This document shows positions 17,526 to 64,000 of a stretch of DNA of 64,000 nucleotides, piece by piece. Source of the stretch: Thermodesulfobacteriota bacterium (GTDB taxonomy: Bacteria; Desulfobacterota; UBA8473); the NCBI GenBank assembly GCA_040757775.1, contig JBFLWQ010000012.1:1-64000 (forward strand). Reading direction: 5' to 3'. Both the position numbers and the translations under genes were made by a program. The notes under the pieces were generated by a model. That model had not been told where the DNA came from. It saw nothing but the letters and a program-made list of their open reading frames with translations, and searched no databases. The stretch's first letter is position 1, and every line of letters starts with the position of its first letter.

Positions 17526-17617
17526 TCTCATTCCCGTAGATAAATGTACCCGTGATAATATGAGGGTGGCGATTTTTTTATTAGAGACATAGTACCTTCT
17601 TGAAAAGGGGTTCATTC

Positions 17618-19408
17618 ATGAAGCTTGGATCGGAAACTATTGGCAATGGAGATCAGATCGGCGGAGAAAGAGGGGGAAAAAATCATTATTCCAGACTATA
17701 CCGGAAATTTGTATTCCTTACCCTTATCTGTTCCCTGGCTCCCCTTTTTCTGGTTGGCTGGGGTATCTACATTTACTACTCCGGATTTTCCAGGATGAGG
17801 ATAGAGAACTACTTCAAGAGTCAGGTTGAACACCACCGGGGAATAATAGAATTGTTTTTAAGAGAACGAACCTCCGATCTCCAATTAGTGATTTTTACCC
17901 ATTCTCCCGATTATCTGCAAAAAACTCCAAACCTCAGGCGTGTTTTCAACGTCATGAACCGGGAGGGTTGTTTTTTTACGGACTTAGGCATTATCGATGA
18001 CCAGGGGAGGCATCTTGCCTATGTCGGCCCTTACGATTTGATGGGGAAAAACTATTCAAAGACTTTCTGGTTTAAAGAAGTCATGAAAAAGGGGGTTTAT
18101 ATCAGTGATATGTTTATGGGGTTTCGGAATGCCCCGCACTTTATCATTGCTGTCCTCCGAACTGAGGGGAACAGGAAATGGATTTTAAGGGCGAGTATAG
18201 ATACGGAATATTTTCGTTCCCTGGTTGAAAACGTCAAGATGGGCAGGACCGGTGAGGTATACCTTTCTAATCGGGAGGGAATTTTGCAAACCACTCCTCG
18301 TTTCAGCGGTAAAATTATGGAAAAGGCACCCTTACCGGCGGCGTTTTTCCATAAGGAAAGTGGAATCGGTATTTTAGAAACTGACAGAGATGATCCAAAT
18401 CAGCAGTTTCCACGTCAGATAATAGCCTATACCTGGCTTCAAAATCCCCGTTGGAAGCTGGTGATAAAACAGGATTATTCCGAAGCCTTCAGGGATGTGA
18501 ACCATGCCAATCGGGCAGCCTTAATTTTCCTCCACTTAAGCCTCCTTGTCATCCTGATCATCTCTGTGATCAGTACCCGATATATGATTAAAGTCATAAA
18601 AAAACGAGACGAAGAGGCAGACCGGCTGAACAAGCAACTCACCCAGGCTAGTAAATTAGCTTCCCTGGGCGAGCTTTCCGCAGGGGTAGCCCACGAGATC
18701 AATAATCCTCTGGCGATCATCCTGACCGAAAACCAGGTTATAAGGGATTCAGTTGAGGAAACACCGAATCTAGACGATAGCTTTAAAACGGAATTGTTTA
18801 CATCTTTATCTCAGGTAGATGCCCAGGTGCAGCGTTGTAATCTTATTACCCAGAACCTTCTCAGGTTTTCGCGCCGTACCAAATCCCGTCTGGAGACGGT
18901 AAATCTAAATGCCTTTCTTGAAGAAATCATCCAGCTTATGGAGGGGAGGGCAAAAGGAATGGGCATTCAGTTTTCTGCTGACCTGGATAAGGATCTCCCA
19001 GCCTTCCTCTCTGACCCCTCCCAGCTTCAGCAGGTATTTTTAAACCTTATCACCAATGCTTTTGATGCGCATGACGGGAAGCCTTATGGAACCATCAGTA
19101 TCAGTACCCGTTCCAACAATCAACGCGAGGGGGTGGAGATTGTGGTTGCGGATACAGGTTCGGGCATCTCTCCTGAGAACATGGAAAAAATGTTCGACCC
19201 GTTTTTCACCACGAAGCCCGTTGGAAAAGGAACCGGATTGGGACTTTCCATCTCCTACAGCATTATCAGGCGTTTGGGAGGAGACATTTCAGTGCAGAGT
19301 GAGATAGGGAAGGGCACCCAATTCAATCTCTTCCTCCCTTTCATGCCGCCTGCCGACGTTCAGGAAAATTTGGATGATGTTTTTATAAATCCTCACTCTT
19401 CTGCCTAG
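17618..19408 (+). CDS. Cache-domain sensor histidine kinase
   Basis: 596 residues from the ATG at 17618, chosen over the in-frame TTG at 17600 because AAGGGG precedes it by 8 bases. Membrane helix near 30-54, a double-Cache extracytoplasmic sensor ~55-295, second helix ~302-325, a HisKA helix with His359 (GVAHEINNP) and an HATPase with NLITNAFDA and GTGLGLSIS. Two receivers follow within 17 and 6 bp, then a second kinase and an NtrC activator, so this is the top of a phosphorelay-like operon. The sensor half is closely similar to the kinase-less protein at 57619-58632. Ligand unknown; Cache domains usually bind organic or amino acids. Confidence 0.9.
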
Positions 19409-19424: not shown

Positions 19425-19835
19425 ATGAAAATACCCAGAATTCTCCTGGTTGATGATGAGGTGGCATTTGCCAACAACGTCCTGAAGCTTCTATCTAAAA
19501 GAGGGTATGATGTCATTGCTGTAAATGACGGAGAAAGTGCTATCCGTACCCTCGGGGAAAAAGAGTTCGACGTTGTAATCCTTGACATGAAGATGCCGGG
19601 GATGGATGGTATTGCCACACTGAAAGAAATTAAGGAAAAAGAACCTCTTGTAGAAGTGGTAATACTTACAGGACATGGGACTGTTGAATCGGGGATTGAA
19701 GGGATGCAATTAGGGGCTTTTGATTTTGTGATGAAACCAGCCAATATTGCCGATCTCCATGAAAAGGTCTGCCAGGCATACCAGAGAAAGTTGATCGAGG
19801 AAGAAAGAATCAAACAACAGGAATCAGGCAGGTGA
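19425..19835 (+). CDS. single-domain response regulator
   Basis: 136 residues: a CheY-like receiver (LVDDE at the N-terminus, phospho-acceptor Asp54 in ILDMKMPG, lysine in VMKPANI) with a short charged tail. AAAGGAGA precedes the ATG. It lies between the 17618 kinase and a second receiver, so it probably relays phosphate within the operon's signalling chain. Confidence 0.9.
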   Translation: MKIPRILLVDDEVAFANNVLKLLSKRGYDVIAVNDGESAIRTLGEKEFDVVILDMKMPGMDGIATLKEIKEKEPLVEVVILTGHGTVESGIEGMQLGAFDFVMKPANIADLHEKVCQAYQRKLIEEERIKQQESGR

Positions 19836-19841
19836 ACCGGT

Positions 19842-20234
19842 ATGTCAAATTCAACGCGTGTTCTTCTGATTGATGATGAGAAGCTCTTTCTGGAGTCCTT
19901 AACCAAGGTCCTGCGAAAAAGAGGGATGGTAGTTCACTCTGCTTACAGCGGGTCTGAGGCAATTGCCATCATTTCTGCTGGGAAGTTCGACGTCATCGTA
20001 CTTGATCTCAAGATGCCCGAGATGGACGGGTTGATGACCCTGAAAGCAATCCGAGATCAAGATACCCTTACACCGGTAATTCTCTTGACCGGCTACCTGG
20101 ACATCGAACGTGTAACCGAGGCACTGAAAATGGGCGTTACAGAAGTCCTCCTCAAACCGTGTCCTGTGGAAACAGTTGTTTCCGCTATCGAGAATGCCCA
20201 TGAGCGAAAGGCAATAGCAGAAGAGAATAGATGA
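19842..20234 (+). CDS. single-domain response regulator
   Basis: 130 residues: a CheY-like receiver with Asp55 in VLDLKMPE and lysine in LLKPCPV. It starts 6 bp after the previous receiver and is clearly co-transcribed. The two receivers are related but not close copies, so they may serve different steps or partners. Confidence 0.9.
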   Translation: MSNSTRVLLIDDEKLFLESLTKVLRKRGMVVHSAYSGSEAIAIISAGKFDVIVLDLKMPEMDGLMTLKAIRDQDTLTPVILLTGYLDIERVTEALKMGVTEVLLKPCPVETVVSAIENAHERKAIAEENR

Positions 20235-20366: not shown

Positions 20367-20383
20367 CCGTGGGGAAGCTGTGT

Positions 20384-21874
20384 ATGCGAAAGATTATTAG
20401 CCTGCGGGCACGCATAATACTTATCCTGTCTGTTCTGATTTTAACTGTTATAGGTTGTAGTGTGGTAACAATCTGGTACGCAGAGGTTATAGAATCGCTT
20501 TTTACCAGAGTGGTTGATAAGGATGTAACCTCTTTCCGGGTGGCAGTCAACCTGGAAACTGCACTGGCAAGACAGAAGGGGTTCACAAGCTATTATTTCA
20601 TGGATGGCAACCCTGACTGGTTAAGACAACTGGAGCAGAATCACCAAGTCTTCAATAAAACCCTCAGGGAAGCCCGGGAATCGGTACAAACAGAGATGGG
20701 AAGGAATATCCTGGACAGGATCTGGTCGGAATATAGCCATTATAACGATTCACGCAGGCAGGTTATCAGGTTTTATCAGAAGGGAGAAAAGGAAGCCGGT
20801 TCCAGGCTTCACATGGAGATTCGCCGGCAGTTCATGGACATTTATAATCTTTGTGAGCAATATAAGGGTATCCATGAAAAGAGTATTGCCATGGTACGAA
20901 ACGAGGTCCTTTCACGGACTCGATTTAACAATGCTATGATAATGGTATTTATACAGGTTGCTGGCATGACGGGGGTATTACTCGCTTATATCCTTTTTAA
21001 ACAGGTCTTGGAACCTATTCGTCAACTGACCAGAGAAACACTTCCTGATGACGGCGACAGGGTTCCTTCTTCAGACGAGGTTAAGACTCTCAGCCACCAG
21101 GTGTATGGTCTGATCAAGGATGTAGATCAGACGCAGAGCAAACTGGCAAGGAGTCAGGCTAATCTTGTACAATCAGAAAAATTGGCAATGGTAGGAAAAT
21201 TGGCAGCAGGTGTAGCCCACAGTATCAGGAATCCTTTGACTTCGTTGAAAATTCGATTATTTTCCCTGGGGCGTGCCCTTTCCCTCTCTGCTGGCCAGAA
21301 GGAGGATCTTGAGGTGATTTCCGAGGAGATCCACCATATTGATACCATTCTGCAAAACTTTCTTGCCTTCTCCCGTCCGCTCAAGCCAAGGATGGAAAAG
21401 ATCAGCCCCTCGGATGTAGTGGATCTGGCATGTCAGCTACTCTGGCATCGCTTTGAATCCTCTGGCATTGAGGTAGAACTCTGTCGTGAAAAGAGGCTCC
21501 CCTTGATTCTGGCAGATCCATATCAGTTGAAAGAAGCCCTGATAAATATACTGGTCAATGCCTGCGAAATTATGACAAATGGCGGCATCATTAGGATAAA
21601 GGAAGAAGAGGGTGAAGGGGATTCAGGAAGAGAGGTTATCATAAGGGTGATAGACAATGGCCCGGGTATCCCGGAAGATCTACAGGATAAGGTCTTTCTA
21701 CCCTTTTTCAGTACCAAAGAGGAGGGAACAGGCCTGGGTTTAAGCATTGCCCTGCGAATTGTGGAAGAACACGACGGTCGGTTGGATCTCAGATCACAGG
21801 AAGGAGAAGGGGCACATTTTATCATTACTCTTCCCTGTAAGGAAAAGGACGATGGGAACTATCCTGATTGTTGA
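20384..21874 (+). CDS. membrane sensor histidine kinase
   Basis: 496 residues from the ATG at 20384 (GGGGAAG lies 8 bases upstream, just after the MITE). Two membrane helices (~8-30 and ~183-205) flank a mostly helical periplasmic domain rich in Arg/Glu, like a four-helix-bundle chemoreceptor sensor. The dimerisation motif is AHSIRNPLTS, followed by an HATPase ([25 protein letters not shown]). The activator gene starts inside its 3' end (23-base overlap), so the two are translationally coupled and likely a cognate pair. Confidence 0.9.
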   Translation: MRKIISLRARIILILSVLILTVIGCSVVTIWYAEVIESLFTRVVDKDVTSFRVAVNLETALARQKGFTSYYFMDGNPDWLRQLEQNHQVFNKTLREARESVQTEMGRNILDRIWSEYSHYNDSRRQVIRFYQKGEKEAGSRLHMEIRRQFMDIYNLCEQYKGIHEKSIAMVRNEVLSRTRFNNAMIMVFIQVAGMTGVLLAYILFKQVLEPIRQLTRETLPDDGDRVPSSDEVKTLSHQVYGLIKDVDQTQSKLARSQANLVQSEKLAMVGKLAAGVAHSIRNPLTSLKIRLFSLGRALSLSAGQKEDLEVISEEIHHIDTILQNFLAFSRPLKPRMEKISPSDVVDLACQLLWHRFESSGIEVELCREKRLPLILADPYQLKEALINILVNACEIMTNGGIIRIKEEEGEGDSGREVIIRVIDNGPGIPEDLQDKVFLPFFSTKEEGTGLGLSIALRIVEEHDGRLDLRSQEGEGAHFIITLPCKEKDDGNYPDC

Positions 21875-23291
21875 CGATGATCATCAATTGAGACAGAGCT
21901 TTGAAAAGCTTTTAACAGAGGAGGGACATACAGTATTAACTGCCTCCAGCGGTGAAGCAGGTCTCTCTGTAATAAAATCGGCTATGTCTGATCTGGTTAT
22001 TCTGGACGTGCGTCTACCGGGAATGAGTGGTCTGGAGACATTTCAGGCTATCCGGGAGATAGATCCGAAGCTCCCGGTAATCGTTATGACAGCCTTCGGC
22101 ACTACCGAAACGGCTATCGAGGCAACCAAATTGGGGGCATTTGATTATGTCCTCAAGCCTTTCGATATCCCCGACATCCTGAAACTTATTAATCAGGCAT
22201 TGGAGGCAGGTCGCCTTGTCCGCTCCAGGGTAGAGATGGACGTTGTTTCCAAAACGGAATCTTCTGAGATCATTATTGGACAGTGCAGAGCTATGCAGGA
22301 GCTTTACAAGACTATCGGTCGGGTAGCTCCCACTGATGCCACGGTGCTCATCCGGGGTGAATCCGGGACGGGAAAGGAGCTGGTGGCGCGCGCCCTTTAT
22401 CAGCACAGCCTCAAAGCAGACAAACCTTTTATGGTGATCAACTGCGTGGCTATCCCTGAAACACTGCTGGAAAGTGAACTATTCGGGTACGAAAAAGGGG
22501 CATTCACCGGTGCTGTGAGTCGCCGCATAGGGAGGATCGAACAGGCACATAAGGGAACAATATTACTTGATGAAATAGGAGATATGCCATTTAGTATCCA
22601 GTCCAAGATACTTCGCCTGCTTGAGGAAAAGAGTATCGAGCGCCTCGGTGGACGTGATCCCATCCCGGTAGATGTCCGTATTATCGCTGCGACCAACCGG
22701 GACCTTGAAACAGCAATTGCAGATGGGTGTTTCCGGGAGGATCTCTATTACCGGCTAAAGGTAGTTACTATCTGGCTCCCCCCTTTACGGGAGCGTCTAC
22801 AGGATATTCCGCGGCTTGCCGATCATTTTCTCGCCAGGTTTGCCAGAGATATGAACATGGATAATCCAGGTATGACCCTGGAGACAAAGGAGATGCTCAA
22901 CCGTTATAGCTGGCCCGGCAATGTCCGTGAATTGTCCAATGCCATACAAAAAGCCCTGATTTTCAGCCGGGGTTACCCCATTCGGCCGGAGGATATCTCC
23001 CAGGCCATTGAGAAAAAGGATGCAATGATTGGAAAATTGGAGGAGCTTTGTCCTGAGGAGACGATCCAGCAATGGGTCCGCAGGGCACTCCTGTCAGGAA
23101 ATAATGAGTATGTATTTGATTCTTTGCGTGAGCGTTTCACCAGTGTAATCATCCGCGAGGCACTCGATATCGCAGGTGGCAACAAAAGCCGTGCTGCGAA
23201 GCTCCTCGGTCTTTCCAGGCCTACCCTCCTGGCCAGAATTGAAAAATACCATATTAAGGTGGAAAGATCGGTGAAAACAGAGGAGATTTGA
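21852..23291 (+). CDS. NtrC-family sigma-54-dependent response regulator
   Basis: 479 residues: receiver with Asp52 (ILDVRLPGM), AAA+ domain with Walker A GESGTGKE, the sigma-54-contacting GAFTGA loop, and a C-terminal Fis-type helix-turn-helix (GGNKSRAAKLLGLSRPTLLARI). The start at 21852 is set by homology of the receiver N-terminus (MGTILIVDDD). A near-perfect -24/-12 promoter begins 360 bp after its stop and is the simplest target. It is also a candidate activator of the shared dyad-bearing promoters at 9071, 46640 and 57048. Confidence 0.95.
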   Translation: MGTILIVDDDHQLRQSFEKLLTEEGHTVLTASSGEAGLSVIKSAMSDLVILDVRLPGMSGLETFQAIREIDPKLPVIVMTAFGTTETAIEATKLGAFDYVLKPFDIPDILKLINQALEAGRLVRSRVEMDVVSKTESSEIIIGQCRAMQELYKTIGRVAPTDATVLIRGESGTGKELVARALYQHSLKADKPFMVINCVAIPETLLESELFGYEKGAFTGAVSRRIGRIEQAHKGTILLDEIGDMPFSIQSKILRLLEEKSIERLGGRDPIPVDVRIIAATNRDLETAIADGCFREDLYYRLKVVTIWLPPLRERLQDIPRLADHFLARFARDMNMDNPGMTLETKEMLNRYSWPGNVRELSNAIQKALIFSRGYPIRPEDISQAIEKKDAMIGKLEELCPEETIQQWVRRALLSGNNEYVFDSLRERFTSVIIREALDIAGGNKSRAAKLLGLSRPTLLARIEKYHIKVERSVKTEEI

Positions 23292-23666: not shown

Positions 23667-23770
23667 AATAATAGTGCCAGGTAAAAATGCGGTCCACGGG
23701 GTAAAGAGATCAAAACAAGTCAGGGGCATTTAAAACAGGGTTGCAAAATCTAGATAAAGGAGGTCATTAC

Positions 23771-24331
23771 ATGGCAGAGGTATCGAAAGGAAGGGGAGCA
23801 GTTAAGTTTCTGTTCTGGACGATAGTGGCGGTAGCGTTATTTTATTACGCATTCCACTCCTATTATTCAGGGCAGATGGTTTCGTGGTATTATTATAAGG
23901 CGGGCGCGGAGGGGTACGCTGTTAATACGAAAGCTTTCAAAGACGCTTCGAAGGAGAAACCGGCAATGTTAGAGATTGGTTCCTTTGAGACTATCCACGG
24001 CCTTCAGGCAGTGCCGGTCAAGAAAGGGGACCGTTTGCCAGCAAACGCCGATGGAATCATCAATAATGAGGTTATAAAAAAGGGTAAGCGGGCTAAGATA
24101 GAAGACAGGTATCTGAAGGTGATGGTGCCCAAGGAGGTAAAAGAGGCAAAAGGTTTTAAATACAAGGACACCTTCAAGCATAAGGATATCAAAACAAATC
24201 CATGGTCCGGGGTGTGGAATGTATCTATAATTTTGGCTTTAGGATTGAGTCTAGGGTTGTTGGCAGAGGGTTTCACCGATATTTTAGGATTCAAGGTGGA
24301 AAAGATAGAACATTTTGAAGGCATTCATTGA
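23771..24331 (+). CDS. unrecognised two-helix membrane protein
   Basis: 186 residues from the ATG at 23771 (AAAGGAGG at good spacing). One membrane helix at ~10-30, a ~110-residue basic, probably extracytoplasmic region with repeated Lys-rich segments (VKKGDRLPANADG, NNEVIKKGKRAKI), and a second helix at ~150-170. No known domain recognised. It is the first gene after the sigma-54 promoter, with the TauE/SafE permease next. The periplasmic part may be an accessory subunit of that permease; this is inference from position. Confidence 0.7.
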   Translation: MAEVSKGRGAVKFLFWTIVAVALFYYAFHSYYSGQMVSWYYYKAGAEGYAVNTKAFKDASKEKPAMLEIGSFETIHGLQAVPVKKGDRLPANADGIINNEVIKKGKRAKIEDRYLKVMVPKEVKEAKGFKYKDTFKHKDIKTNPWSGVWNVSIILALGLSLGLLAEGFTDILGFKVEKIEHFEGIH

Positions 24332-24348
24332 TTAGAGGAGGCAGAACA

Positions 24349-25416
24349 ATGTTTGATTTTTTAATTGCAGGTATACAGGCGCCGATATTCCTCCTGGTCT
24401 TGACTGGCCTGACGGTAGGTATGGTCGGCGGTTTTATCGGGGTAGGGGGCGGCTACATGGTCACTCCAGCCCTTATCGTGTTCGGTTTCCCGGGCTACAT
24501 GGCTTCTGGAATTGATATGACCCATATCGCGGGCAAGTCTATCGTGGCTACGGTGCGCCACAGGCAGCTCGGAAATATAGACTGGGTCCTGGGTCTGGCG
24601 ATGGTGGGTGGAACTATGTTAGGGGTAGAACAGGGGGTCAGGCTTCTTACCTACACTAAAAAGCTCGGGCTTTCCGGTATTATTCTCCTCACCGCTTCAG
24701 TGCTCATCATGATTGGTCTCTTTGTTTATACGCAGGTAGAGACCCACAGATCAACCAAGAAGATCAGCGAGCTCGAAAAGAGTGGTAAAAAGGTTGGCCG
24801 TGAGCTAAGTGTGAGCAGAGGGCCCAGGATATTCCAGAGCATTCCGTTATTTCCTATTGTGCGCTGCAGGACTGCCCGTATTGTGGTTTCCATGTGGGTC
24901 ATCGTTGTTGTGGGCATTGTAACAGGGATAATGGCAGGATTCTTCGGTGTAGGGGGCGGCTTTATCAGAGTGCCTGCACTGGTTTATGTGGTTGGTGCCT
25001 CGACACACATTGCTGTGGGGACGGACCTACTGGAAATTGCAGTTTCAGGTGGTTATGGTGCCTTGAGACATTCGATGATGGGAAATGTAGACATGATTGC
25101 CGTCCTCTTCATGATCGTGGGTGCCATGTTTGGAGCGCAGTTCGGCAGTATTGCCACGTCATACGTGCGCGGGCCTGCTATACGTTACATCCTCAGTTAC
25201 TCCCTCGTCCTGGCTACAGTGGGGGCATTTTTGAGACTCTTCTATATGTTGACCGGTTCAAAATACGAGGTACTCTCTTTCTTTGCTGTGGTATTTACCC
25301 TGGGGGAGATGCTGTTTCTCTGTAGTTTCATCGTTTCTCTGGTGCTATTTTCGCTCCGTTACCAGAAGGGGAAACCTGTCCCCGCATGGATACCCCCGCT
25401 GGTAGTGGCAAAATAG
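24349..25416 (+). CDS. TauE/SafE-family membrane permease
   Basis: 355 residues from the ATG at 24349 (GAGGAGG upstream). About eight to nine membrane segments and two copies of the family's glycine-rich signature (GGFIGVGGGYMVTPAL near 25-40 and AGFFGVGGGFIRVPAL near 200-215), the internal repeat of TauE/SafE (sulfite/organosulfonate exporter) proteins. A charged cytoplasmic loop (~125-165) separates the halves. Members export or import sulfite, sulfoacetate, thiosulfate and organic acids; the substrate here is not evident. Grouped with four small or unknown membrane proteins. Confidence 0.85.
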   Translation: MFDFLIAGIQAPIFLLVLTGLTVGMVGGFIGVGGGYMVTPALIVFGFPGYMASGIDMTHIAGKSIVATVRHRQLGNIDWVLGLAMVGGTMLGVEQGVRLLTYTKKLGLSGIILLTASVLIMIGLFVYTQVETHRSTKKISELEKSGKKVGRELSVSRGPRIFQSIPLFPIVRCRTARIVVSMWVIVVVGIVTGIMAGFFGVGGGFIRVPALVYVVGASTHIAVGTDLLEIAVSGGYGALRHSMMGNVDMIAVLFMIVGAMFGAQFGSIATSYVRGPAIRYILSYSLVLATVGAFLRLFYMLTGSKYEVLSFFAVVFTLGEMLFLCSFIVSLVLFSLRYQKGKPVPAWIPPLVVAK

Positions 25417-25572: not shown

Positions 25573-25773
25573 ATGAAATTCTTTCATATTATTGCAAACA
25601 TAGTTCTGTATGGGTTCTTCCTTTGGTTGCTCTATAACTCCACGATCAAGGAATGGGATCCGTGGGATGCCTTTGTTGTGGTCTTTGTTCTCTTTGTGGC
25701 TATTGTTACATCCATGATGCCGGGTCTCCATGCTTCGAGAACCTCACCAGGTGAATATCCTTACGATGACTGA
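25573..25773 (+). CDS. 66-residue membrane protein
   Basis: Two predicted spans (about 5-25 and 33-53, the second VVVFVLFVAIVTSMM) and a short acidic tail ending EYPYDD. AGGAGG lies 8 bases before the ATG. The stop overlaps the start of the next gene (ATGACTGA), showing translational coupling. No family recognised. Confidence 0.75.
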   Translation: MKFFHIIANIVLYGFFLWLLYNSTIKEWDPWDAFVVVFVLFVAIVTSMMPGLHASRTSPGEYPYDD

Positions 25774-26419
25774 AGAGGTATATGCCCTTAGGGCCAGGAT
25801 CAGAGAACTTTATCCCAAACGTGTCAGGGGTGATCTCACCGAGAAGGCATTTCAGCACGAGCTAACCGGGCGCACGCTGGACCTTTACCGTGCACTCATC
25901 AGGATGAGGATGGAGAAGGGGGAGACCATCTTGAGGGAGCATCATGTTGTTCGTTCCCATTTTCGGCTGACCCAGTCGGTACTCAGAGAACCTGACCAGG
26001 AGGCTATCAGTATGTTCGCGACGGATCGCCGTCTTTTCTACGTCAAAGACGTGCTGCTGTCTGGCCGACCACCTGGCACCGATGAGGAGGATAATCTTTT
26101 AATTGAAGAAGTCTCCTTTGACCGTATCGAGTCTTTACATGTTCGACGTCAGGTGAGGATAGGGGAGATAGGCGTGGGAGGGGCAATGGTGGTTTTTGTT
26201 ATCTTTCTCTATCCCTATCTTTCTGTAACCGGTCCCTTTATGATGGGACTGGGTGTTTTGGGTATGTTGCATGGCATGTTGTTGCCCACGCGGTGGGTAG
26301 AGGTTAAGACCATTAATCCGGCTTCGGATCCGATCATGATATATGCCCTCCGCAAGAAAAGCTGCCGGGAATTAGTCAGATTACTATGGAAGAAAACGAG
26401 GCTCTATGGAAGGGATTAA
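25766..26419 (+). CDS. membrane protein with bPH-like domain
   Basis: 217 residues from the ATG at 25766, which overlaps the previous stop. The N-terminal ~70 residues are helical and charged. Residues ~85-205 resemble bacterial pleckstrin-homology (bPH) domains: ATDRRLFYVKD, then ISFDRIESLHVRRQ-like strands, interrupted by a two-span hairpin (~135-170, MVVFVIFLYPYLSV and GPFMMGLGVLGML). Function unknown. It overlaps the next receiver by 14 bases, so it belongs to the same operon. Confidence 0.65.
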   Translation: MTEEVYALRARIRELYPKRVRGDLTEKAFQHELTGRTLDLYRALIRMRMEKGETILREHHVVRSHFRLTQSVLREPDQEAISMFATDRRLFYVKDVLLSGRPPGTDEEDNLLIEEVSFDRIESLHVRRQVRIGEIGVGGAMVVFVIFLYPYLSVTGPFMMGLGVLGMLHGMLLPTRWVEVKTINPASDPIMIYALRKKSCRELVRLLWKKTRLYGRD

Positions 26420-26777
26420 AGTCTTGCTTGTTGACGACGAGGTTGATTTCACGGCCAGTCTGCGCAGGGTCCTGAGCCGTCGGGGCTTCGATGTAGAAGT
26501 GGCAGCAGATGGTTTGTCTGCCCTGGCTCGGGTTGTTCAGGGATACTTCGATGTGGTGGTGCTCGACGTCAAGATGCCAGGGATGAACGGTCTCCATGTC
26601 CTGTCAGAAATCAAACGCCTCTCACTGCCCACCCGGGTTATCCTCCTGACCGGTCACTCCTCTTTAACTGAAGAGGAAAATACCTTAAAGGGCGAAGCCT
26701 TTGCCTATCTTTTAAAGCCATACCCGATTCTGAAACTGGTGGAAATGATAAAGGCAGCAGTGGCAAAGAACCTATAA
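26406..26777 (+). CDS. single-domain response regulator
   Basis: 123 residues: a receiver with LLVDDE, phospho-acceptor Asp54 in VLDVKMPGM and lysine in LLKPYPI. It starts 14 bases inside the bPH-like gene and precedes the PEP-synthase-like gene by 85 bp with a hairpin between. A likely phosphorylation source is the 17618 or 20384 kinase upstream. Confidence 0.9.
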   Translation: MEGIKVLLVDDEVDFTASLRRVLSRRGFDVEVAADGLSALARVVQGYFDVVVLDVKMPGMNGLHVLSEIKRLSLPTRVILLTGHSSLTEEENTLKGEAFAYLLKPYPILKLVEMIKAAVAKNL

Positions 26778-26862: not shown

Positions 26863-29526
26863 ATGGAAGGTATAAAACCACCCAACAGTTCAGGAAGGGC
26901 GGTTGAATGGCTGTGCCGGATAGCTGCCATGCTGTGGCGCAGCATTCTTTTTTTCCTCGAAATAGTTGGTATTTGCAGGGAAGAAAGCATTGACCATGCC
27001 GCCCAGGTGGCAAGACTTAAGCTCTATCACGCCGAATTCCGTAAGCTTCTCTCCGCAAACAACAGTTTCCTCGAAACTATGGCTGATCTGGAACACAAAT
27101 TCTTGAAAAGGGAATATATTGAGCGTTCTTTCATAAAACGGAAGGTAATGCGTGCCATTGCGGATGTCCATGCCATGGTGGAGAGCCTGAATGTCATCTC
27201 TGATGCCCGCTATCCCGATTTGAGAAAGGTTCTGGGACAGAACACGGCTGCCCTGACGACTTTAGTTGAGGACTCAAGCCAGACGGTTCCTGCCGAACTC
27301 GTGCTCGAAATGTCTGCAATATTCAGAAATCACGCCGATCTGACGGGTGGTAAGATGGCAAATCTTGGTGAGATAAGGAATGTCCTGCAATTGCCTACAC
27401 CGGACGGCTTTGTTGTTACTACCGAGGGCTTTCGGCTGGTTATTGAAGAAGGCGGTATACGTTCATGGGTGCAGGACAGGCACATGGAACTCCTCTCATC
27501 AGGGAATGTAGCAGGGATTAGCCGGGACATCAGAGAAATGATAGAAAAGGTAGAGGTTCCCATCGCTCTCAGGGAAGCTATGTTCGACCTTTATGGACGG
27601 CTTGCCCGGAGGATTGGGTCGAGTCCCTCGTTGGCAGTGCGTTCCAGTGCCCTGGGAGAGGACAGTGATTTTTCGTTTGCCGGTCAGTTTTTATCACTCC
27701 TCAACGTAGGTCGAGAGGGGCTGCTCAGCGCCTATCTTAAAGTAGTGGCCAGCCTTTACTCTCCTGAAGCGATCCACTATCAGCTCCTCCACGGGATATT
27801 AGCTGATTCCGCAGAGATGGCTGTGGGGTGTATCGCTATAGTGGATGCCCTGGTAAGCGGAGTTGCCTTTTCAAAGGATCCCAACCAGCCTGATTCAGGG
27901 TATGTACTGATCCAGGCTATACGCGGGCTGGGGCTACCTCTGGTGGAGGGGAGAACCTCGCCGGAGAGTATCTTTGTTCCAAGGGAAGATAGGGGATACG
28001 TGATTACCCGGATTCCTTCCCAGCAGAAAAGCCGTTTCATCCCTTCCCCGGATGCCGGGCTGAAAGAGGAAACACTCAGACTGGAGGAGGTTGGACAGGA
28101 TTGCCTTACCGATAGTGAAGCGCAGCAACTGGCACAGTGGGCTCTTAAGCTGGAGACTCACTTCGGTGCCCCACAGGATATTGAGTGGGCGATGGATAAA
28201 AACCGGCAGATCATTCTTCTCCAGTCCAGGCCTTTACGTCTTTTCAAGCATATCGTTCACACCGATATGCCTGTAGACGGTTTCCCGGTACTGGTGAGAG
28301 GAGGAGAAGTGGCATGTCCCGGCGTGGGTAGCGGTCCGGCTGTCCACATAACTGAGGATGAAGGCATGGATACCTTCCCCGGTGGCGGGGTTCTGGTTGC
28401 CAGAAGGTCCTCGCCCAAGTTCATAAGGGTTATGTCGAAGGCACGGGCTATTGTTACTGACTTCGGGAGTACCACCGGCCATATGGCTTCCCTGGCAAGG
28501 GAATTTCGGGTACCAACCCTTCTGAATACCAGGGTAGCAACGCGTGAAATTCCTCCGGGCACGATGATTACCGTAGATGCAAACAACGGCTTTGTATATG
28601 AGGGTAAGCTTCCCATAAGGGAAGAGAAAGAGGCTGAGGAATGGGGTTTTTATTCAGGGGTACAAAAGTCCCCCTCACCAAGGTTTCAACTCCTCGAGAG
28701 AGTTATCGAGCTTGTTGCGCCTCTTTACCTTACAGATCCGCGTTCTCCTGAATTTACAGCAGATAAATGCCGGACCCTCCACGATCTTGCCCGTTATATC
28801 CACGAAAAGTCCTACAAGGAGATGTTCATGATGGGCAAGAGGGTCGGGGATCTCCGGGCATCCAGCTACTACCTGGATGTTTTTCTCCCTATTGATCTCT
28901 ACCTTATAGATCTTGGCGGGGGTATTGAAGGAATGCCCAGGGGACGAAGGGTGAAACCTTCCCAGATTGCCTCTGTACCCCTTGCTGCACTTCTCAGAGG
29001 GATGCTGCACGAAAAGATACCCCGCTTTGGACCGAGACCCATGGACTTTCGGGGGTTATTCTCAATAATGATGCGCCATGCTGTGAACAGCCCGGAGACG
29101 GAATCAACCTTCCGAGATCCCTGCTATGCCATCATTTCTGATAATTATCTTAACTACACGGCAAGGGTCGGGTATCATTTCAGCGTGGTAGATACCTATT
29201 GCGGCAACACGCCGAATAAAAACTACATCAGCCTGACCTTCAGAGGCGGAGCGGCGGACTACACCCGCCGTAGTCGAAGGGCAAGAGCCATCGCCGGAAT
29301 TCTCAGAGAGTATGATTTATCTGTCGAGGTAAGTCACGATCTGGTCAATGCTCGTCTGGGGAAGGCAACCAGGGAGGAGACCGTCAGCCACCTGGAGATG
29401 ATAGGAAGTCTCTTTCAGTTCTTCAGGCAGATGGATGTTGCCATGACTAATGAGGATTCTGTCCAGCTGCTGAAGGATGCCTTCCTTCGGGGTGATTATG
29501 ACCTTGAAAAGCTCATGGGGTGCTAA
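26863..29526 (+). CDS. PEP-synthase-like phosphohistidine protein with novel C-terminal domain
   Basis: 887 residues. After a helical N-terminal region (~30-150) comes the ATP-grasp domain of PEP synthase/PPDK: GGKMANLGE (~172), RSSALGED with FAGQF (~268), GVAFSKDP (~340), DIEWAMD and LQSRPL (~450). The mobile phosphohistidine domain follows (~485-590), with the catalytic His in TTGHMASLARE. The PEP/pyruvate TIM barrel is missing; residues ~600-887 form a domain I do not recognise, with PIDLYLIDLGGG, RVGYHFS, DTYC, FRGGAAD and a basic RRSRRARAI. It probably autophosphorylates from ATP and passes phosphate to an unknown acceptor. A paralog ends at 62446. The start lacks a strong ribosome site. 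Its stop overlaps that of convergent hypE. Confidence 0.75.
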   Translation: MEGIKPPNSSGRAVEWLCRIAAMLWRSILFFLEIVGICREESIDHAAQVARLKLYHAEFRKLLSANNSFLETMADLEHKFLKREYIERSFIKRKVMRAIADVHAMVESLNVISDARYPDLRKVLGQNTAALTTLVEDSSQTVPAELVLEMSAIFRNHADLTGGKMANLGEIRNVLQLPTPDGFVVTTEGFRLVIEEGGIRSWVQDRHMELLSSGNVAGISRDIREMIEKVEVPIALREAMFDLYGRLARRIGSSPSLAVRSSALGEDSDFSFAGQFLSLLNVGREGLLSAYLKVVASLYSPEAIHYQLLHGILADSAEMAVGCIAIVDALVSGVAFSKDPNQPDSGYVLIQAIRGLGLPLVEGRTSPESIFVPREDRGYVITRIPSQQKSRFIPSPDAGLKEETLRLEEVGQDCLTDSEAQQLAQWALKLETHFGAPQDIEWAMDKNRQIILLQSRPLRLFKHIVHTDMPVDGFPVLVRGGEVACPGVGSGPAVHITEDEGMDTFPGGGVLVARRSSPKFIRVMSKARAIVTDFGSTTGHMASLAREFRVPTLLNTRVATREIPPGTMITVDANNGFVYEGKLPIREEKEAEEWGFYSGVQKSPSPRFQLLERVIELVAPLYLTDPRSPEFTADKCRTLHDLARYIHEKSYKEMFMMGKRVGDLRASSYYLDVFLPIDLYLIDLGGGIEGMPRGRRVKPSQIASVPLAALLRGMLHEKIPRFGPRPMDFRGLFSIMMRHAVNSPETESTFRDPCYAIISDNYLNYTARVGYHFSVVDTYCGNTPNKNYISLTFRGGAADYTRRSRRARAIAGILREYDLSVEVSHDLVNARLGKATREETVSHLEMIGSLFQFFRQMDVAMTNEDSVQLLKDAFLRGDYDLEKLMGC

Positions 29527-30521
29527 CATATCCTCGGCAGCTGTTCACCTGCCAGCATATCCAGGATTCTTGTACCACCAATCTTTGTCCTAAGGCAGAC
29601 CCTGCCGTTTAACTCAGCCGCCACCTCACCAATAATTTCGCTTTCCTTTCCCAGGGGATTACCTTTCATTATCTTAAGCACCTCACCGGTGCAATCCCGT
29701 TTCGCTACTACCACCATCTTCCCTTCATTTGCCAGGTACAAAGGGTCAAGTCCAATGAGTTCACACACCGCTGCCACTCCGTCAGATACCCCTATCTTAT
29801 CCTCATAAACCACAATACCCAGACCTATACCTTCGGCGATTTCATTCAGGGTAGTTGCCAGTCCACCCCTGGTAGGGTCTCTCATAAACTTCACCCCATC
29901 TACCTCAAGGATATCAGATGCAAGCTGGTTTAAAGGGGCAAGATCACTTGTAACCCGGGAGCGAAAAGGAAACTCCTCCCTGGCTAAAAGCACCGAAACT
30001 TCGTGTTCCCCAACACTTCCCGAAAGTATGATTCTGTCTCCAGTTTCAATTCCTTTCACGGAGAGGTCTTTTTTTACTATCCCGACACCGGAGGTATTTA
30101 TGTAAATCCTGTCTGCTCCTCCTTTTTCAACTACCTTGGTGTCTCCGGTAACTAAAAGCACCCCGGCAATCTGTGCTGCCTGAGTCATAGAGAGGGCTAT
30201 CTCTTCGAGTACCCTTTGATCCAATCCCTCCTCTATTATAAAACCGCAGGAGATATACAGCGGTTCTGCCCCCATGACTGCCAGGTCATTCACTGTCCCA
30301 AAGACCGAGAGTTTACCAATATCTCCTCCTGGAAAGAATATAGGTTTCACCACATAGGAATCCGTAGTGAAGGCAAGCCTTGTTCCCCCTATCTCAACTA
30401 TTGCCCCATCATCCTTTTCTGAAAGGAAAGGGTTATCGAAGTTCTTAAGGAAAACCTTATCAATAAGGCTGTGAGATAGACTTCCCCCACTGCCATGAGC
30501 CAGGAGTATCTTTTTATCCAT
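29523..30521 (-). CDS. hypE: hydrogenase maturation protein HypE
   Basis: 332 residues from the ATG at 30521, which overlaps the hypD stop by 8 bases (a longer GTG start at 30539 is possible). PurM-like fold: N-terminal AHGSGGSLSH, FTTDSYVV, DPTRGGLAT. The C-terminus is PRIC, the cysteine that receives carbamoyl from HypF and is dehydrated to thiocyanate for the Fe(CN)2CO centre of [NiFe] hydrogenase. Last gene of the hyp run. Its stop codon overlaps the stop of the convergent PEP-synthase-like gene. Confidence 0.97.
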   Translation of the reverse strand: MDKKILLAHGSGGSLSHSLIDKVFLKNFDNPFLSEKDDGAIVEIGGTRLAFTTDSYVVKPIFFPGGDIGKLSVFGTVNDLAVMGAEPLYISCGFIIEEGLDQRVLEEIALSMTQAAQIAGVLLVTGDTKVVEKGGADRIYINTSGVGIVKKDLSVKGIETGDRIILSGSVGEHEVSVLLAREEFPFRSRVTSDLAPLNQLASDILEVDGVKFMRDPTRGGLATTLNEIAEGIGLGIVVYEDKIGVSDGVAAVCELIGLDPLYLANEGKMVVVAKRDCTGEVLKIMKGNPLGKESEIIGEVAAELNGRVCLRTKIGGTRILDMLAGEQLPRIC

Positions 30522-31596: not shown

Positions 31597-31640
31597 CCAA
31601 AAACATCTCCTGTATGCATTCAGCTACCAGTCATCAGTCT

Positions 31641-34162: not shown

Positions 34163-34190
34163 CGTACCTCTCTACTTTCTCAAATATCAG

Positions 34191-34841: not shown

Positions 34842-34875
34842 CTAATAAGTCCGTCCTGAAAAATTTCGGGGTGAA

Positions 34876-58857: not shown

Positions 58858-58886
58858 GGGCACGGCGCACCGTGCCCCTACTTGTC
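58849..58886. terminator. bidirectional terminator, 17-bp perfect stem
   Basis: GACAAGTAGGGGCACGG-CGCA-CCGTGCCCCTACTTGTC: a 17-bp perfect inverted repeat with a 4-base loop. It contains the stop codons of both convergent genes; each protein ends Asp-Lys because the two arms encode the same codons. Strong shared terminator. Confidence 0.75.
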
Positions 58887-60284
58887 ATATTTAAAATTAA
58901 TGTCATTGGTATCTATTCCTTCTTCCTTCATCAGTCGGTGAAGATACTGCCTTTGGATACCTGCCATAGCAGCAGCCTTACTTATATTTCCCCTGCTTTT
59001 TCGCAGGGCGGACAACACATAGTGCCGATGAAACTTATGAGTCATCTTATCCTTGGCTTCTTTAAAGGTTAACTGATAGATGTCCTCATCAAGGCAGGGA
59101 TAAGGAGTTTTATATTCATTGTCCGGGAATAAATCTCTCACCTCCAGAGTATTGGTCTGGCAGAAGATAACGCCACGTTCTATGATGTTTTCCAGCTCTC
59201 TCACATTGCCGGGCAATTCCAGTGAAAGAAGGGTCTGCGTAGCTGCAGGTGAAATGTCTGTGATATCTTTCTGGTTAGCCCGCGTGTATTTTTTTAAAAA
59301 ATGATAACTCAAAAGGGAGATATCCTCTTTTCTATCCTTAAGTGGAGGCAATTCAAGATGGATAACATTCAGCCGGTAGTAAAGATCTTCCCGGAAACGT
59401 TTTCCTTCTATCTCCTCCTTCAGATTGTGGTTTGTGGCAGCTATAAAGCGTATATCTGCCTTTTTGGTAACCACACTTCCGACTGGTTTAAACTCACCTT
59501 CCTGTATCAGCCGAAGGAGTTTGGTTTGCATGAGAGGGTTGAGATCGCCGATTTCATCCAAAAAGAGGGTTCCCTTGTGAGCATCTTCAACCAGCCCCCT
59601 TTTGTCTTTCCATGCCCCTGTAAAAGCACCTTTTACATGGCCAAAAAGCTCGCTTTCTATAACCTGTTCAGGAATAGCAGTACAGTTGACGGTAATCATT
59701 TTATTAGAACTTCGAAGACTGTTTTGATGGATTGCCCTGGCGAGCAATTCCTTGCCGGTTCCGCTGGCCCCGGTAATTAACACTGTAGCCGTGGTAGGGG
59801 CTACCTGCCTTATTTGTTCAAATATTTCCTTCATAACTGAACTTGCCCCGACCATGCATGAAAAACTATCTCTCTCCTCCAGTGCCTGACGAAGAGCCAG
59901 ATTTTCCCTTACCATCTCACGCCATTTCATAACCTTGTTTATCGTTAATAGAATCCGTTCTTTTCGAAATGGCTTGGTTATATAGTCATGGGCGCCTTTC
60001 TGGACCGCCTCTACTGCGGTTTCAATAGTGCCATAGGCGGTCATGATGACCACCAAAACATTTGGGTTTATTTTTTTAACTTCTTCAAGGAGTTTGATGC
60101 CATCCATCCCGGGCATCTTTAAATCGACTATTACCAGATCAAAAGGCTGTTTCTTAAACAACTCCAGTGCCGTCACCGGATCAGACTCTGTAACCAATTG
60201 ATGGTCTGTCTTCTCTGAAATGATTCTCTTTAAAAGAACCAGCATGTCTTTCTCATCATCAACTACCAGTATCCTTCCTGACAT
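58878..60284 (-). CDS. NtrC-family sigma-54-dependent response regulator
   Basis: 468 residues: receiver with Asp54 (VIVDLKMPGM), AAA+ domain with TGASGTGKE and the intact GAFTGA loop, and a C-terminal Fis-type helix-turn-helix (RGNISKAAAMAGIQRQYLHRLM). The start overlaps the kinase stop (TAATG), with CAGGAGG inside the kinase's last codons. Cognate to the kinase at 60284-62428. One of two activators in the window that could act at the dyad-bearing promoters. Confidence 0.95.
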   Translation of the reverse strand: MSGRILVVDDEKDMLVLLKRIISEKTDHQLVTESDPVTALELFKKQPFDLVIVDLKMPGMDGIKLLEEVKKINPNVLVVIMTAYGTIETAVEAVQKGAHDYITKPFRKERILLTINKVMKWREMVRENLALRQALEERDSFSCMVGASSVMKEIFEQIRQVAPTTATVLITGASGTGKELLARAIHQNSLRSSNKMITVNCTAIPEQVIESELFGHVKGAFTGAWKDKRGLVEDAHKGTLFLDEIGDLNPLMQTKLLRLIQEGEFKPVGSVVTKKADIRFIAATNHNLKEEIEGKRFREDLYYRLNVIHLELPPLKDRKEDISLLSYHFLKKYTRANQKDITDISPAATQTLLSLELPGNVRELENIIERGVIFCQTNTLEVRDLFPDNEYKTPYPCLDEDIYQLTFKEAKDKMTHKFHRHYVLSALRKSRGNISKAAAMAGIQRQYLHRLMKEEGIDTNDINFKYDK

Positions 60285-62428
60285 TATACCTCCTGAGTCT
60301 TTATGGGCAGCTTTATGGTAAAGACGGTTCCTCTTGGTTTGCCTGATGAATCAGCAGTATGGCTGAGACAATTTATCGTTCCTCCATATTTGGTTATAAT
60401 ACCATAGCTTACGAATAAACCCAGTCCGGTCCCTTCCCCTTCGGGTTTGGTAGTAAAGAAGGGGTCAAAGATATGGTCTATATCTTTTTCGTTAATCCCG
60501 ACACCGTCATCCTGGAACTGAACTATGGCTTTTCGACTGCCTTTTTCCATGGATGTCCGGATATTTAACATACCCCTTCCATTCATGGCTGCTGCGGCAT
60601 TGTTGATCAGATTCAAAAACACCTGCTGTAACTGTCGGGGATCGCCTTTAACCTGGGGTATGTTTTTATCTAAATCCAGAACCAGTTCAATATTGTTCAT
60701 ATCAAGGGTGTGCTTCACAACCTTGATTATATCTTCAATACTGTGGTTCAAATCAGAGTACTCAGCGTCCCCTTCTCCCTGGCGGGCAAAGCTTAAGAGA
60801 TTTTCTACAACCTGTTTGCAATGGAGCCCCTGTCTTTCTATGGTTTTCAGGTCTTCATATTCCTGACTGTTCTCATCTGTCTTTTCAAGCAAAAGATCGG
60901 AGAAGCCCAATATAACCCCCAGAGGGTTATTGATTTCATGGGCAACGCCAGCCGCTAATGTACCCATAGATGCCAATTTTTCGGTATTGATGAGCTGCCT
61001 TTCCAATTGTTTATTTTCTGTAATATCCCTGGCAATACATAAGACAGAAGATACCTTGCCTTCTTCATTCTTTAAGGGCATGAAATTGGCACTGATCCAT
61101 GTCTGGTGTTCTCCCAATGTTAACATGAAGTCATCACGAACGCTCTTCTCGAATCTATAGACCAGTCTTATCAATTTAAGCTGCCTTTCAGCAATTTCCT
61201 CAGAAAATAGGACAGAAAGCTTCCTGCCCAGGAAATCTTCAGGGCAGCCCCCGAAGAAATTGGCAGTAAAGCTGTTCATGGACTGAAAATGGCCTTCAGA
61301 ATCTACCGTAAAGATAAAGTCCTCGGCGCTTTCTACCAGAGAACGGTATTTTTCTTCTGACCTTTTGAGTTCCCAGGTTTGATTGTTAACCTCCTGCTCC
61401 AGGGTGCGAGACCAGCGTATTTCAAAAAACAGGATCGTGACAGCACCCAGTACAATTGCCACAATGATTATTCCCTGCAACAGAAAGTGCCGCAGATAGC
61501 CTGAATAAATTGCCTCTTCAACCTCTGTTATGGGTGCTACTACGGCTACATACCAGTTTTGAGGCGGATTATCTGAAATAATTACGGGGGAGTAAGCAAT
61601 CAGTTTCTTTATCTCTCCGGTAATTCCCCGATGCCAACCGGAAACATACCAGCCTATGCCCTCCAGACCTTTGAGCATCCTTTCTTTCTGAATAAAGTTG
61701 ATCTTTCCGTAGTAAATACTTGCATCCCGCTCTTTACGAACCTTGAAGGCATCCTTGCCTACAAACTTTGTCTCGGGATGAAAGAGGAAAATCCCGTTGT
61801 TATCAATAATCCAGGCATATCCTGTCTTTCCGGAGCGCACATTTTTCAAAAAGGGGGTCAGGAACCATGAGACATTGACATGAAAAAGAAGCAGTCTTTT
61901 ATAAGCGTCTGCCAGGGGTACAGCCAATTGCAAACCTATCCCGGAAGAGTCAGTCCGGGGAGGGGAAACCCAGACCCCTTTATTCTTTCCAGTATTCGGT
62001 TGCTGCCCATTATTCAGTCCCTGGTCGGATGCCTGATTTAATGTCCAATGTCTATGAGGTGTATATATTTGGGTCTTTTTGTTGTCCAGGTCCACAACAT
62101 CAATTCTCCAAACGCCACCCTCTAAGACACGGGAAAGACTCTTCTGGATAGTTTCATACTGCCTGTAAGGGGTTGGATGACCATCAGAGATATCCTTACC
62201 AAGGAGAACAAGCTCTTTTTTTAAAAACTCCATCTCCTTTCCGATCAAATTGGAGATATTGCGGGCAATAACCAGTTGTTCTTCATTGAACTGTTTCCCC
62301 ACTACTTCTCTCATCTCCCTGCCCGACCAGAGCCCCAGAGCGATACCGGCTGTCAGAAAGGCAGTAGCACTCAGGCAGACAATGAGAACAACCTTTTTGT
62401 TAATTCCAGGGCGTTTTTCTTGAGTCAT
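60284..62428 (-). CDS. Cache-PAS sensor histidine kinase
   Basis: 714 residues from the ATG at 62428, 6 bases after AGGAGG (a GTG at 62434 is less well spaced). Membrane helices ~14-35 and ~310-335 flank a double-Cache domain (~40-305; GKTGYAWIIDNNGIFLFHPE), then PAS (~360-475), HisKA ([13 protein letters not shown]) and HATPase (NLINNAAAAM, GTGLGLFVSYG). Operon order is PEP-synthase-like gene, kinase, NtrC regulator, so all three likely work in one pathway. Confidence 0.92.
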   Translation of the reverse strand: MTQEKRPGINKKVVLIVCLSATAFLTAGIALGLWSGREMREVVGKQFNEEQLVIARNISNLIGKEMEFLKKELVLLGKDISDGHPTPYRQYETIQKSLSRVLEGGVWRIDVVDLDNKKTQIYTPHRHWTLNQASDQGLNNGQQPNTGKNKGVWVSPPRTDSSGIGLQLAVPLADAYKRLLLFHVNVSWFLTPFLKNVRSGKTGYAWIIDNNGIFLFHPETKFVGKDAFKVRKERDASIYYGKINFIQKERMLKGLEGIGWYVSGWHRGITGEIKKLIAYSPVIISDNPPQNWYVAVVAPITEVEEAIYSGYLRHFLLQGIIIVAIVLGAVTILFFEIRWSRTLEQEVNNQTWELKRSEEKYRSLVESAEDFIFTVDSEGHFQSMNSFTANFFGGCPEDFLGRKLSVLFSEEIAERQLKLIRLVYRFEKSVRDDFMLTLGEHQTWISANFMPLKNEEGKVSSVLCIARDITENKQLERQLINTEKLASMGTLAAGVAHEINNPLGVILGFSDLLLEKTDENSQEYEDLKTIERQGLHCKQVVENLLSFARQGEGDAEYSDLNHSIEDIIKVVKHTLDMNNIELVLDLDKNIPQVKGDPRQLQQVFLNLINNAAAAMNGRGMLNIRTSMEKGSRKAIVQFQDDGVGINEKDIDHIFDPFFTTKPEGEGTGLGLFVSYGIITKYGGTINCLSHTADSSGKPRGTVFTIKLPIKTQEV

Positions 62429-62445
62429 TTTCACCCTCCTGATTC

Positions 62446-64000
62446 CTAAGCAGTTACAGTGTTTCTCAAGTTGTAATTTCCTATCAGAAAATTCTTTGCC
62501 AATGCCTCAACACTGGCTTCATTATTCATCAACATATCCATCTGGCGGGTGAACTGGAGCAGTCGTCCAATCACGTCCAGTTTATCTTCAATAAGAGACA
62601 TCTCGTGTTTTTGGTAACGGGCGTCTACCCGGTCTCCGGTGACCTCAACTGTAAAATCAAGTGATTGAAAGATTATAGCAATAGCCCGGACACGTCTGTT
62701 TCTGCGGATATCGTCGGCAGCACCACCCTTGAAAGAGAATGTTATATAATTCATGCTAGGTGTCGGACTACAGTAGGAATCCAGTATGCTGTAATGGTAG
62801 CCCACGCGGGAGCTAAAATTTAGATATTTGTCAGAAATAATGGCATAGCTGCGATCACCGAACCTTTCTGCTTTAGAAGGAGGGGAGAGCATCTGCTCTC
62901 TCATAACAGATAAAAAGCCTTTAAACTCCACAGGGCGTAATTGACTTTTCTGAAAATCTTCATGCATTATTCCTCTAAGGAGGGCATTGAAGGGAATCGA
63001 AGCAATCTTATCAGGAGGTACACTTTTGAGATGCACGTTGGTTTCCGTTAGACCACCTCCCAAATCAATAACATACAGGTCGAGCGGAACGAAGTCCTTT
63101 AATTTAAAAGCTACTCCCTTTTTGTCAGACACAAAATCGCTGAGTTGAAACATCTCAGTATATGAGAATTCATGTACCATCCGGCTGATATCGTGAAGGG
63201 ACTGACAAAATGAGGGAGTGAAGTTGGGTGACTTGGGGTCCAGAAGATGCAAAGGTATAATCCAATCACTGACCCCCCTCAGAACCCTGTATACCGGTGT
63301 ATCCTTCATGGGGCATTCACAGGCATTCTGGAAGGACTCTAATTCAGGGACTATTCCCTGATATACCCTTCCTGAATAGGCATCCACGGTGACTTCCATA
63401 CCGGTGGGGATAGTGGCTGTGGCTACCCTGGCATTCACGATGGCAGGCACCGAGAACTCCCTTGCAAGAGATGCCATATGTCCTGCTATATTTCCCAGAT
63501 CGGTGATGATCGCCCTGGTTTTGTTCATGACCATAACAAACTTCGGGGATGAGTGCCTGGCCACCAGAACCGCCCCATCAGGGAAATTCAACAGATCTTG
63601 ATCTGAAGCTACATGAAATGCCGGTCCGAAACCTACCCCTGCAGAGGCTGTTCCCCCTTTTTCGATTAGGAGGGGGTATGCTGTCAAGACAGGGGTGAGG
63701 GGATAGCCTTTTCCATAGTCTTCTACGCGGAGGGGGCGGCTTTGCAGGATAAAGAGACGTCCGTACCTGTCGAGGGCCCACTCGATATCCTGGGGGGACC
63801 CATAGTGTTCCTCAAGTTTGAGGGCGTAGGCGGCAAGAATATCAATCTCTTCCTGTGATAGGCAAGGTTTATCCTGAAACTTATCTTCCACAGGAACTTC
63901 CATCAAACCCCCATCGGGCTTACTGACCAACTTAACTGTCTTGTGGGAGATCTCGGCTGCTATTGTTTGTCGGTTTTTGTCTACCGTGTAATTGTCCGGT
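62446..64000 (-). CDS. PEP-synthase-like phosphohistidine protein, C-terminal ~518 residues (runs off the window)
   Basis: The frame stays open to the window edge; the ATP-grasp domain would lie beyond 64000. Visible from the N-terminal side: end of the ATP-grasp (DIEWALDRYG, LQSRPL), phosphohistidine domain with catalytic His in IAGHMASLARE, and the same unrecognised C-terminal domain as the protein at 26863-29526 (PLDLYVIDLGGG, RVGYHYS, DSYC, FKGGAAD, RRNRRVRAI). No PEP/pyruvate barrel. It lies 18 bp upstream of a Cache kinase. Sequence divergence between the two paralogs is clear but the motifs are invariant. Confidence 0.78.
   Translation of the reverse strand, partial: PDNYTVDKNRQTIAAEISHKTVKLVSKPDGGLMEVPVEDKFQDKPCLSQEEIDILAAYALKLEEHYGSPQDIEWALDRYGRLFILQSRPLRVEDYGKGYPLTPVLTAYPLLIEKGGTASAGVGFGPAFHVASDQDLLNFPDGAVLVARHSSPKFVMVMNKTRAIITDLGNIAGHMASLAREFSVPAIVNARVATATIPTGMEVTVDAYSGRVYQGIVPELESFQNACECPMKDTPVYRVLRGVSDWIIPLHLLDPKSPNFTPSFCQSLHDISRMVHEFSYTEMFQLSDFVSDKKGVAFKLKDFVPLDLYVIDLGGGLTETNVHLKSVPPDKIASIPFNALLRGIMHEDFQKSQLRPVEFKGFLSVMREQMLSPPSKAERFGDRSYAIISDKYLNFSSRVGYHYSILDSYCSPTPSMNYITFSFKGGAADDIRRNRRVRAIAIIFQSLDFTVEVTGDRVDARYQKHEMSLIEDKLDVIGRLLQFTRQMDMLMNNEASVEALAKNFLIGNYNLRNTVTA

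Follow-up and report, generated by a model that had tools for sequence, protein, structure and literature searches.

PEP synthase-like (PEPS-like) proteins of sulfate reducers are a real and widespread family, a variant of the ATP-grasp/phosphohistidine phosphotransferases that carries a previously undescribed C-terminal domain. The case analyzed here comes from a window of 64,000 nucleotides (the whole stretch of DNA that was studied). Three family copies are encoded on the corresponding contig (C12), two of which extend into the window. Copy 1 is complete. Copy 2 is truncated by the window edge, its full length being 887 aa (C12:62446-65109), and copy 3 (868 aa, C12:65708-68314) is beyond the window. 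In their C-terminal part, copies 1 and 2 are 46% identical over ~280 aa. A weak match on another contig of this genome (C41) is PTS enzyme I. For the PEPS-like protein we propose, with about as much confidence as doubt, a role as a signalling phosphotransferase of sulfate reducers that is derived from PEP synthase/PPDK and acts together with a receiver to enable its cognate TauE permease. The relevant features are listed in Table 1.

Table 1. Features of the window that are relevant to the PEPS-like proteins and their gene neighborhood.
Feature	Position	Strand	Remarks
dCache sensor histidine kinase	17600..19408	+	
Receiver-only response regulator	19425..19835	+	sequence similarity
Receiver-only response regulator	19842..20234	+	sequence similarity
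Histidine kinase	20369..21874	+	sequence similarity
NtrC-type sigma-54 response regulator	21747..23291	+	sequence similarity; real start probably 3' of 21747
196-aa membrane-anchored protein adjoining TauE	23741..24331	+	weak MoeA_N match below cut-off
TauE/SafE anion permease	24328..25416	+	PF01925, E 9.5e-38
229-aa protein, no family assigned	25730..26419	+	hydrophobic stretches; overlaps start of the response regulator
Receiver-only response regulator directly 5' of copy 1	26406..26777	+	canonical D10/D11, D54, T82, K104
PEPS-like copy 1 (887 aa)	26863..29526	+	
N-terminal helical region, aa ~45-150	26995..27312	+	family-wide conservation; also in kinase-less paralogs
ATP-grasp domain PF01326, aa 159-459	27337..28239	+	K164, R260, E266, D267, D439, E441, Q454, R456
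Mobile phospho-His domain PF00391, aa 506-576	28378..28590	+	His540 = 28480-28482
New C-terminal domain, aa 600-887	28660..29523	+	
C-terminal half of the new domain	29077..29523	+	AlphaFold2 pLDDT 86.7, pTM 0.82
NtrC-type response regulator after the PAS kinase	58878..60284	-	
PAS histidine kinase after copy 2	60284..62434	-	
PEPS-like copy 2, cut at window end	62446..64000	-	887 aa when complete, to contig position 65109

Two domains of copy 1 are recognized by Pfam, PPDK_N/ATP-grasp (E 5.9e-75) and the PEP-utilizers mobile domain (E 5.1e-17), the latter containing the catalytic histidine, His540 (DFGSTTGHMASLARE). Pfam models give no match beyond aa 577, and NCBIfam matches stop near residue 592. 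The N-terminal helical region is also without a Pfam match, and an amphipathic membrane helix at the N-terminus is in general unsupported. A PADLOC search for defence systems returned no match. The ATP-grasp residues listed in Table 1, together with His540, R546 and E547, are ~99% conserved in 148 sequences (nr90), K164 being absent in a few loci merely as an alignment gap. Conservation of this degree is strong evidence that most members are catalytically active, so that the PEPS-like protein is a probable enzyme. From what is known about PPDK and PEP synthase, ATP-dependent phosphorylation of His540 is to be expected, and we consider it very likely, judging from the conserved residues, that the ATP-grasp domain performs this reaction.

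The C-terminal domain could be assigned neither to a Pfam family nor to a protein of solved structure. When nine C-terminal homologues were compared to Pfam, there was no match even at E<=10, and a sequence search of the PDB with this domain gave chance-level matches only. A PF02896 profile search of the genome detects only the true PTS enzyme I and the true PPDK, not the C-terminal domain, and hhalign of the domain against these enzyme I and PPDK barrels results in a probability of 0.1-0.2%. For the whole domain, AlphaFold2 (71 sequences) predicts a mixed alpha/beta fold that lacks a TIM barrel (pLDDT 79, pTM 0.69). A degenerate PEP barrel is thus ruled out by the silence of Pfam, the PF02896 and hhalign results, and the non-barrel fold. 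The predicted order of elements in the C-terminal half is four beta strands, one alpha helix, two beta strands and two alpha helices. Foldseek finds no match in the PDB at E <= 0.001 for the predicted domain. The top matches of the C-terminal half are mostly the YbjN-like DR_1245 (4h5b), 2plg and several type-III chaperones (TM ~0.25-0.42). TM values of >=0.5 are not reached with the YbjN/type-III-chaperone fold (best ~0.38-0.42, E 0.015 or worse), and the faint likeness of the predicted model to these folds is a hint only. Fourteen residues of the domain, many of them charged, are near-invariant (L621, L623, D641, R644, H647, E648, P676, G713, H772, N787, G795, G796, R806 and D858), with P676 somewhat less conserved than the others.

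The original prediction had claimed that the ATP-grasp and the catalytic histidine are present, that the C-terminal ~290 residues replace the TIM barrel, and that this region has a set of conserved motifs. The core elements correspond to the two Pfam matches and the replacement of the barrel agrees with the data given above, while the motifs were found in both window copies and across the phylum, far above chance (in alignment A2, which covers more diversity, the sequences differ too much for such a scan). It had also suggested a structure prediction and a structure search of the C-terminus; the first yielded an alpha/beta domain rather than a degenerate PEP-utilizing barrel, the second nothing in the PDB at the given threshold. 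An existing characterized family with the same architecture, which would have spoken against novelty, did not turn up. The proposal of a phosphoryl-transfer enzyme or signalling protein of a new type has thereby gained support, with phosphoryl transfer itself deduced from conserved residues.

A profile search with the C-terminal domain alone, also suggested at the outset, was positive for 146 of the 395 phylum genomes that were sampled, often with 3 to 6 copies each. The domain is also found in 182 of the 247 genomes of one large family, which we take to be the Desulfovibrionaceae. Nearly all named relatives are from Desulfobacterota. The gene dsrA codes for the sulfite reductase of sulfate respiration. 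It is present in 139 of the 146 domain-bearing genomes and in 51 of the 249 others (odds ratio 77, Fisher p 4e-53, shared ancestry being ignored). Five of the seven domain-bearing genomes devoid of dsrA have a completeness of 80% or less, and the window's own genome carries dsrA. Within the phylum, the PEPS-like family is almost confined to dsrA-bearing genomes. One relative (L119) comes from a contig of 3 kb that is attributed to Candidatus Schekmanbacteria, which may reflect mis-binning or spread beyond the phylum.

In a tree of the C-terminal domain, the three copies from the window's contig fall into two deep groups, one comprising copies 1 and 2 and the other copy 3, which indicates that the paralogy is old. 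Proteins from the Desulfovibrio nitrate cluster (see below) and kinase-less proteins are together in a further group (support 0.98). The kinase-less paralogs, found in two genomes (L185:8308-9489 (-) and L186:9276-10457 (-)), have 393 aa, with the N-terminal helical region fused directly to the C-terminal domain. They retain the conserved C-terminal residues, and genes for a 119-aa receiver and a dual-specificity phosphatase are next to theirs. These residues are therefore not solely an acceptor site for His540 of the same chain. In another paralog (L163, and the same gene in L175:7817-10393 (+)), neither the ATP-site residues nor His540 are retained, most of the HDxxRxxHE motif of the C-terminal domain is gone as well, and the gene adjoins that for a receiver. 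Based on these two types of paralogs, an independent role of the new domain in binding or regulation is probable. Frames of 1500-1872 aa were considered as fusions. In the longest (L176, 1872 aa), the upstream part resembles read-through into non-coding, GC-rich DNA, and the others yielded no reference partner domain. Two proteins (L184:7753-10995 (+) and L180:6514-10602 (+)) have a real extra C-terminal part of ~200 aa, which by eye resembles a LamG/DUF1080-type fold.

Both copies in the window had been described as embedded in two-component genes, and their neighbors bear this out (Table 1). The adjacent TauE/SafE gene is absent from that description, as are the published phenotype of homologues and the near-confinement to dsrA-bearing genomes. 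For copy 1, the order (hypothetical, TauE, hypothetical, response regulator, PEPS) is a variant of that in the nitrate cluster. After copy 1, genes for hydrogenase maturation (hypE, hypD, hypF, hypB and hypA) were noted by eye at 29523-35217 (-). Across the family, a TauE/SafE gene is within 8 kb in 47 of the 62 loci with enough flank, while a density of six TauE genes per 3.1 Mb would predict ~3%. In the same 62 loci and at the same distance, histidine kinases occur in 45 and receivers in 40. The order TauE, gene, PEPS, response regulator is repeated in divergent subfamilies. Receivers are adjacent on the same strand at 50 of the 148 family ORFs (34 upstream and 16 downstream), and the phospho-acceptor sites are intact in all 47 adjacent receivers that were aligned. 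The receiver partnership may not be universal, because 71 of the 148 ORFs are without a response regulator within 700 bp. In about half of the loci, a DUF4881 protein (PF16222) and a 264-aa protein adjoin the TauE and PEPS-like genes; an example of this recurrent DUF4881 neighbor, together with its relatives, is L005:11366-11992 (-).

The function of such a gene cluster is accessible through published mutants. Mutants of DVU0251-DVU0245/Dde_0597-0605 become nitrate-resistant (Korte et al. 2014, PMC4001038). The genes of the cluster are listed as TauE, hypothetical, PtxB-like, histidine kinase, receiver, PPDK ATP domain plus mobile domain, and dual-specificity phosphatase. In Desulfovibrio vulgaris, the growth of mutants of TauE, the hypothetical protein, the response regulator and PEPS is the same whether or not 100 mM nitrate is present, while a mutant of the phosphatase, encoded 3' of PEPS, is still nitrate-sensitive. 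The histidine kinase of the cluster is a pseudogene in this species, yet the response regulator and PEPS are needed. Fitness data for two cluster genes disagree between two Desulfovibrio strains. A leaky thiosulfate transporter is the hypothesis of the authors, based on unpublished mild defects. DVU0247 has 360 bp and DVU0246 is annotated with 2235 bp (all from PMC4001038).

Among the analyzed loci, L168 has all genes of the nitrate cluster in the same order (TauE, hypothetical, PtxB-like, histidine kinase, 119-aa response regulator, PEPS and dual-specificity phosphatase), and L172 has this order minus the first two genes. The PEPS proteins of both carry the C-terminal domain (E 9e-85 and 3e-84), and the length of their receiver, 119 aa, matches DVU0247. 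Gene order, gene lengths and these relatives suggest that DVU0246 belongs to the PEPS-like family. If transcription proceeds from TauE to the phosphatase, as it does in L168, the PEPS phenotype is not a polar effect, since the phosphatase mutant stays sensitive. From the cluster mutants and the gene order, we infer that the permease depends on the PEPS-like protein for its function.

In the mechanism that we propose, the ATP-grasp domain would phosphorylate His540 on the swivelling domain, a step strongly supported by the conserved residues. As in the dikinase plan, the swivelling domain would then donate its phosphoryl group to an acceptor at the C-terminal domain, and PEP would not be made. 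The likeliest acceptor or controlling partner would be a protein, either the TauE permease complex itself or the response regulator of the receiver-only type. Published mutants and gene order suggest that the output is required by the cognate TauE/SafE anion permease, probably one for sulfur oxyanions such as thiosulfate and sulfite. Nitrate resistance would then be the common outcome when any one of the three (PEPS-like protein, receiver or permease) is lost. Tandem copies presumably differ in the TauE permease that they serve. Membership of the PEPS-like protein in a TauE control module is likely, while for a direct partnership with the receiver the chances are balanced. It is tempting to speculate that the protein is a non-canonical receiver kinase derived from PEP synthase, in which His540, phosphorylated by the ATP-grasp domain, supplies the receiver-only response regulator with phosphoryl groups and so controls the sulfur-oxyanion permeases of sulfate reducers, with the C-terminal domain as a partner-recognition or ligand-sensing module, but in this specific form we consider the idea unlikely.

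The PEPS-like protein may instead be a metabolic dikinase, its C-terminal domain binding a small molecule (imported by TauE or originating from sulfur respiration) that is phosphorylated by His540. Most known relatives with another acceptor domain do use small molecules (family scores; PMC12167813), examples being rifampin phosphotransferase and hydroxyphenylethanone kinase. The residues D641, R644, H647, E648, H772, N787, R806 and D858 resemble a putative binding site, and the adjacency to a permease would fit as well. The neighborhood, however, consists of sensor, receiver and permease genes and not of those for a catabolic pathway, the kinase-less versions retain the same C-terminal residues, and loss of the permease and of the PEPS-like protein share a phenotype (PMC4001038), which renders this explanation rather unlikely. 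Those kinase-less proteins, encoded beside phosphatase and receiver genes, would be easily understood if the protein were mainly a scaffold or allosteric regulator, with the N- and C-terminal domains binding to the receiver or permease and a kinase part that does no more than modulate this binding. The paralog without catalytic residues and the faint YbjN/type-III-chaperone likeness point in the same direction. A mere scaffolding role is nevertheless quite doubtful in view of the near-complete conservation of catalytic residues. That the protein is simply a PEP synthase or PPDK whose barrel has diverged is hardly conceivable. With models of PEP synthase, its core reaches 280 and 277 bits, but this is far below the NCBIfam equivalog cut-offs of 598 and 739.75 (the other equivalog cut-offs are likewise missed by far), the genome has a separate PPDK, and neither PF02896, hhalign nor the predicted fold indicates a barrel.

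For a poorly annotated gene of the cluster that decides nitrate sensitivity in sulfate reducers, a domain-level identity and hundreds of members are now available. This is relevant for the control of oil-field souring and for anion uptake during sulfate respiration. The mechanism of the nitrate cluster becomes directly testable in existing Desulfovibrio mutants.

Among known systems, PEP synthase (PpsA) is the closest to copy 1 by sequence (E 3e-83; PDB 8a8e, E 1e-52), with which it shares the ATP-grasp and mobile His domains. In contrast to PEP synthase, the PEPS-like family is without the PEP/pyruvate barrel, has the N-terminal helical region and the new C-terminal domain, and usually has Gly where PEP synthase has Ser or Cys preceding the catalytic histidine. 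Rifampin phosphotransferase (RPH) also combines a dikinase core with a non-PEP acceptor domain. In RPH, this domain precedes the His domain, while the new domain comes after it in the PEPS-like family, and copy 1 scores 177 with RIF_Ptrans_rph from NCBIfam (cut-off 999). Copy 1 lacks the PEP barrel and the score of PTS enzyme I, for which a separate gene exists (the above-mentioned match on C41), and it is devoid of the Pfam domains HisKA and HATPase_c of histidine kinases. DVU0246/Dde_0604 resemble the family in their PPDK ATP and mobile domain annotation and in having the neighbors seen in L168 and L172; compared by annotation, their 2235 bp are approximately the family length minus the N-terminal region. 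VadK (Rv1127c) from Mycobacterium tuberculosis is PPDK-derived, has no PEP domain, autophosphorylates on His and acts in regulation (PMC13400623). While VadK is truncated after the His domain, full-length PEPS-like proteins have ~290 more residues, two additional domains and another gene context. By analogy, VadK may serve as a precedent for the change of role from dikinase to regulator, to which the PEPS-like family adds a widespread, PPDK-derived probable regulator carrying two uncharacterized domains.
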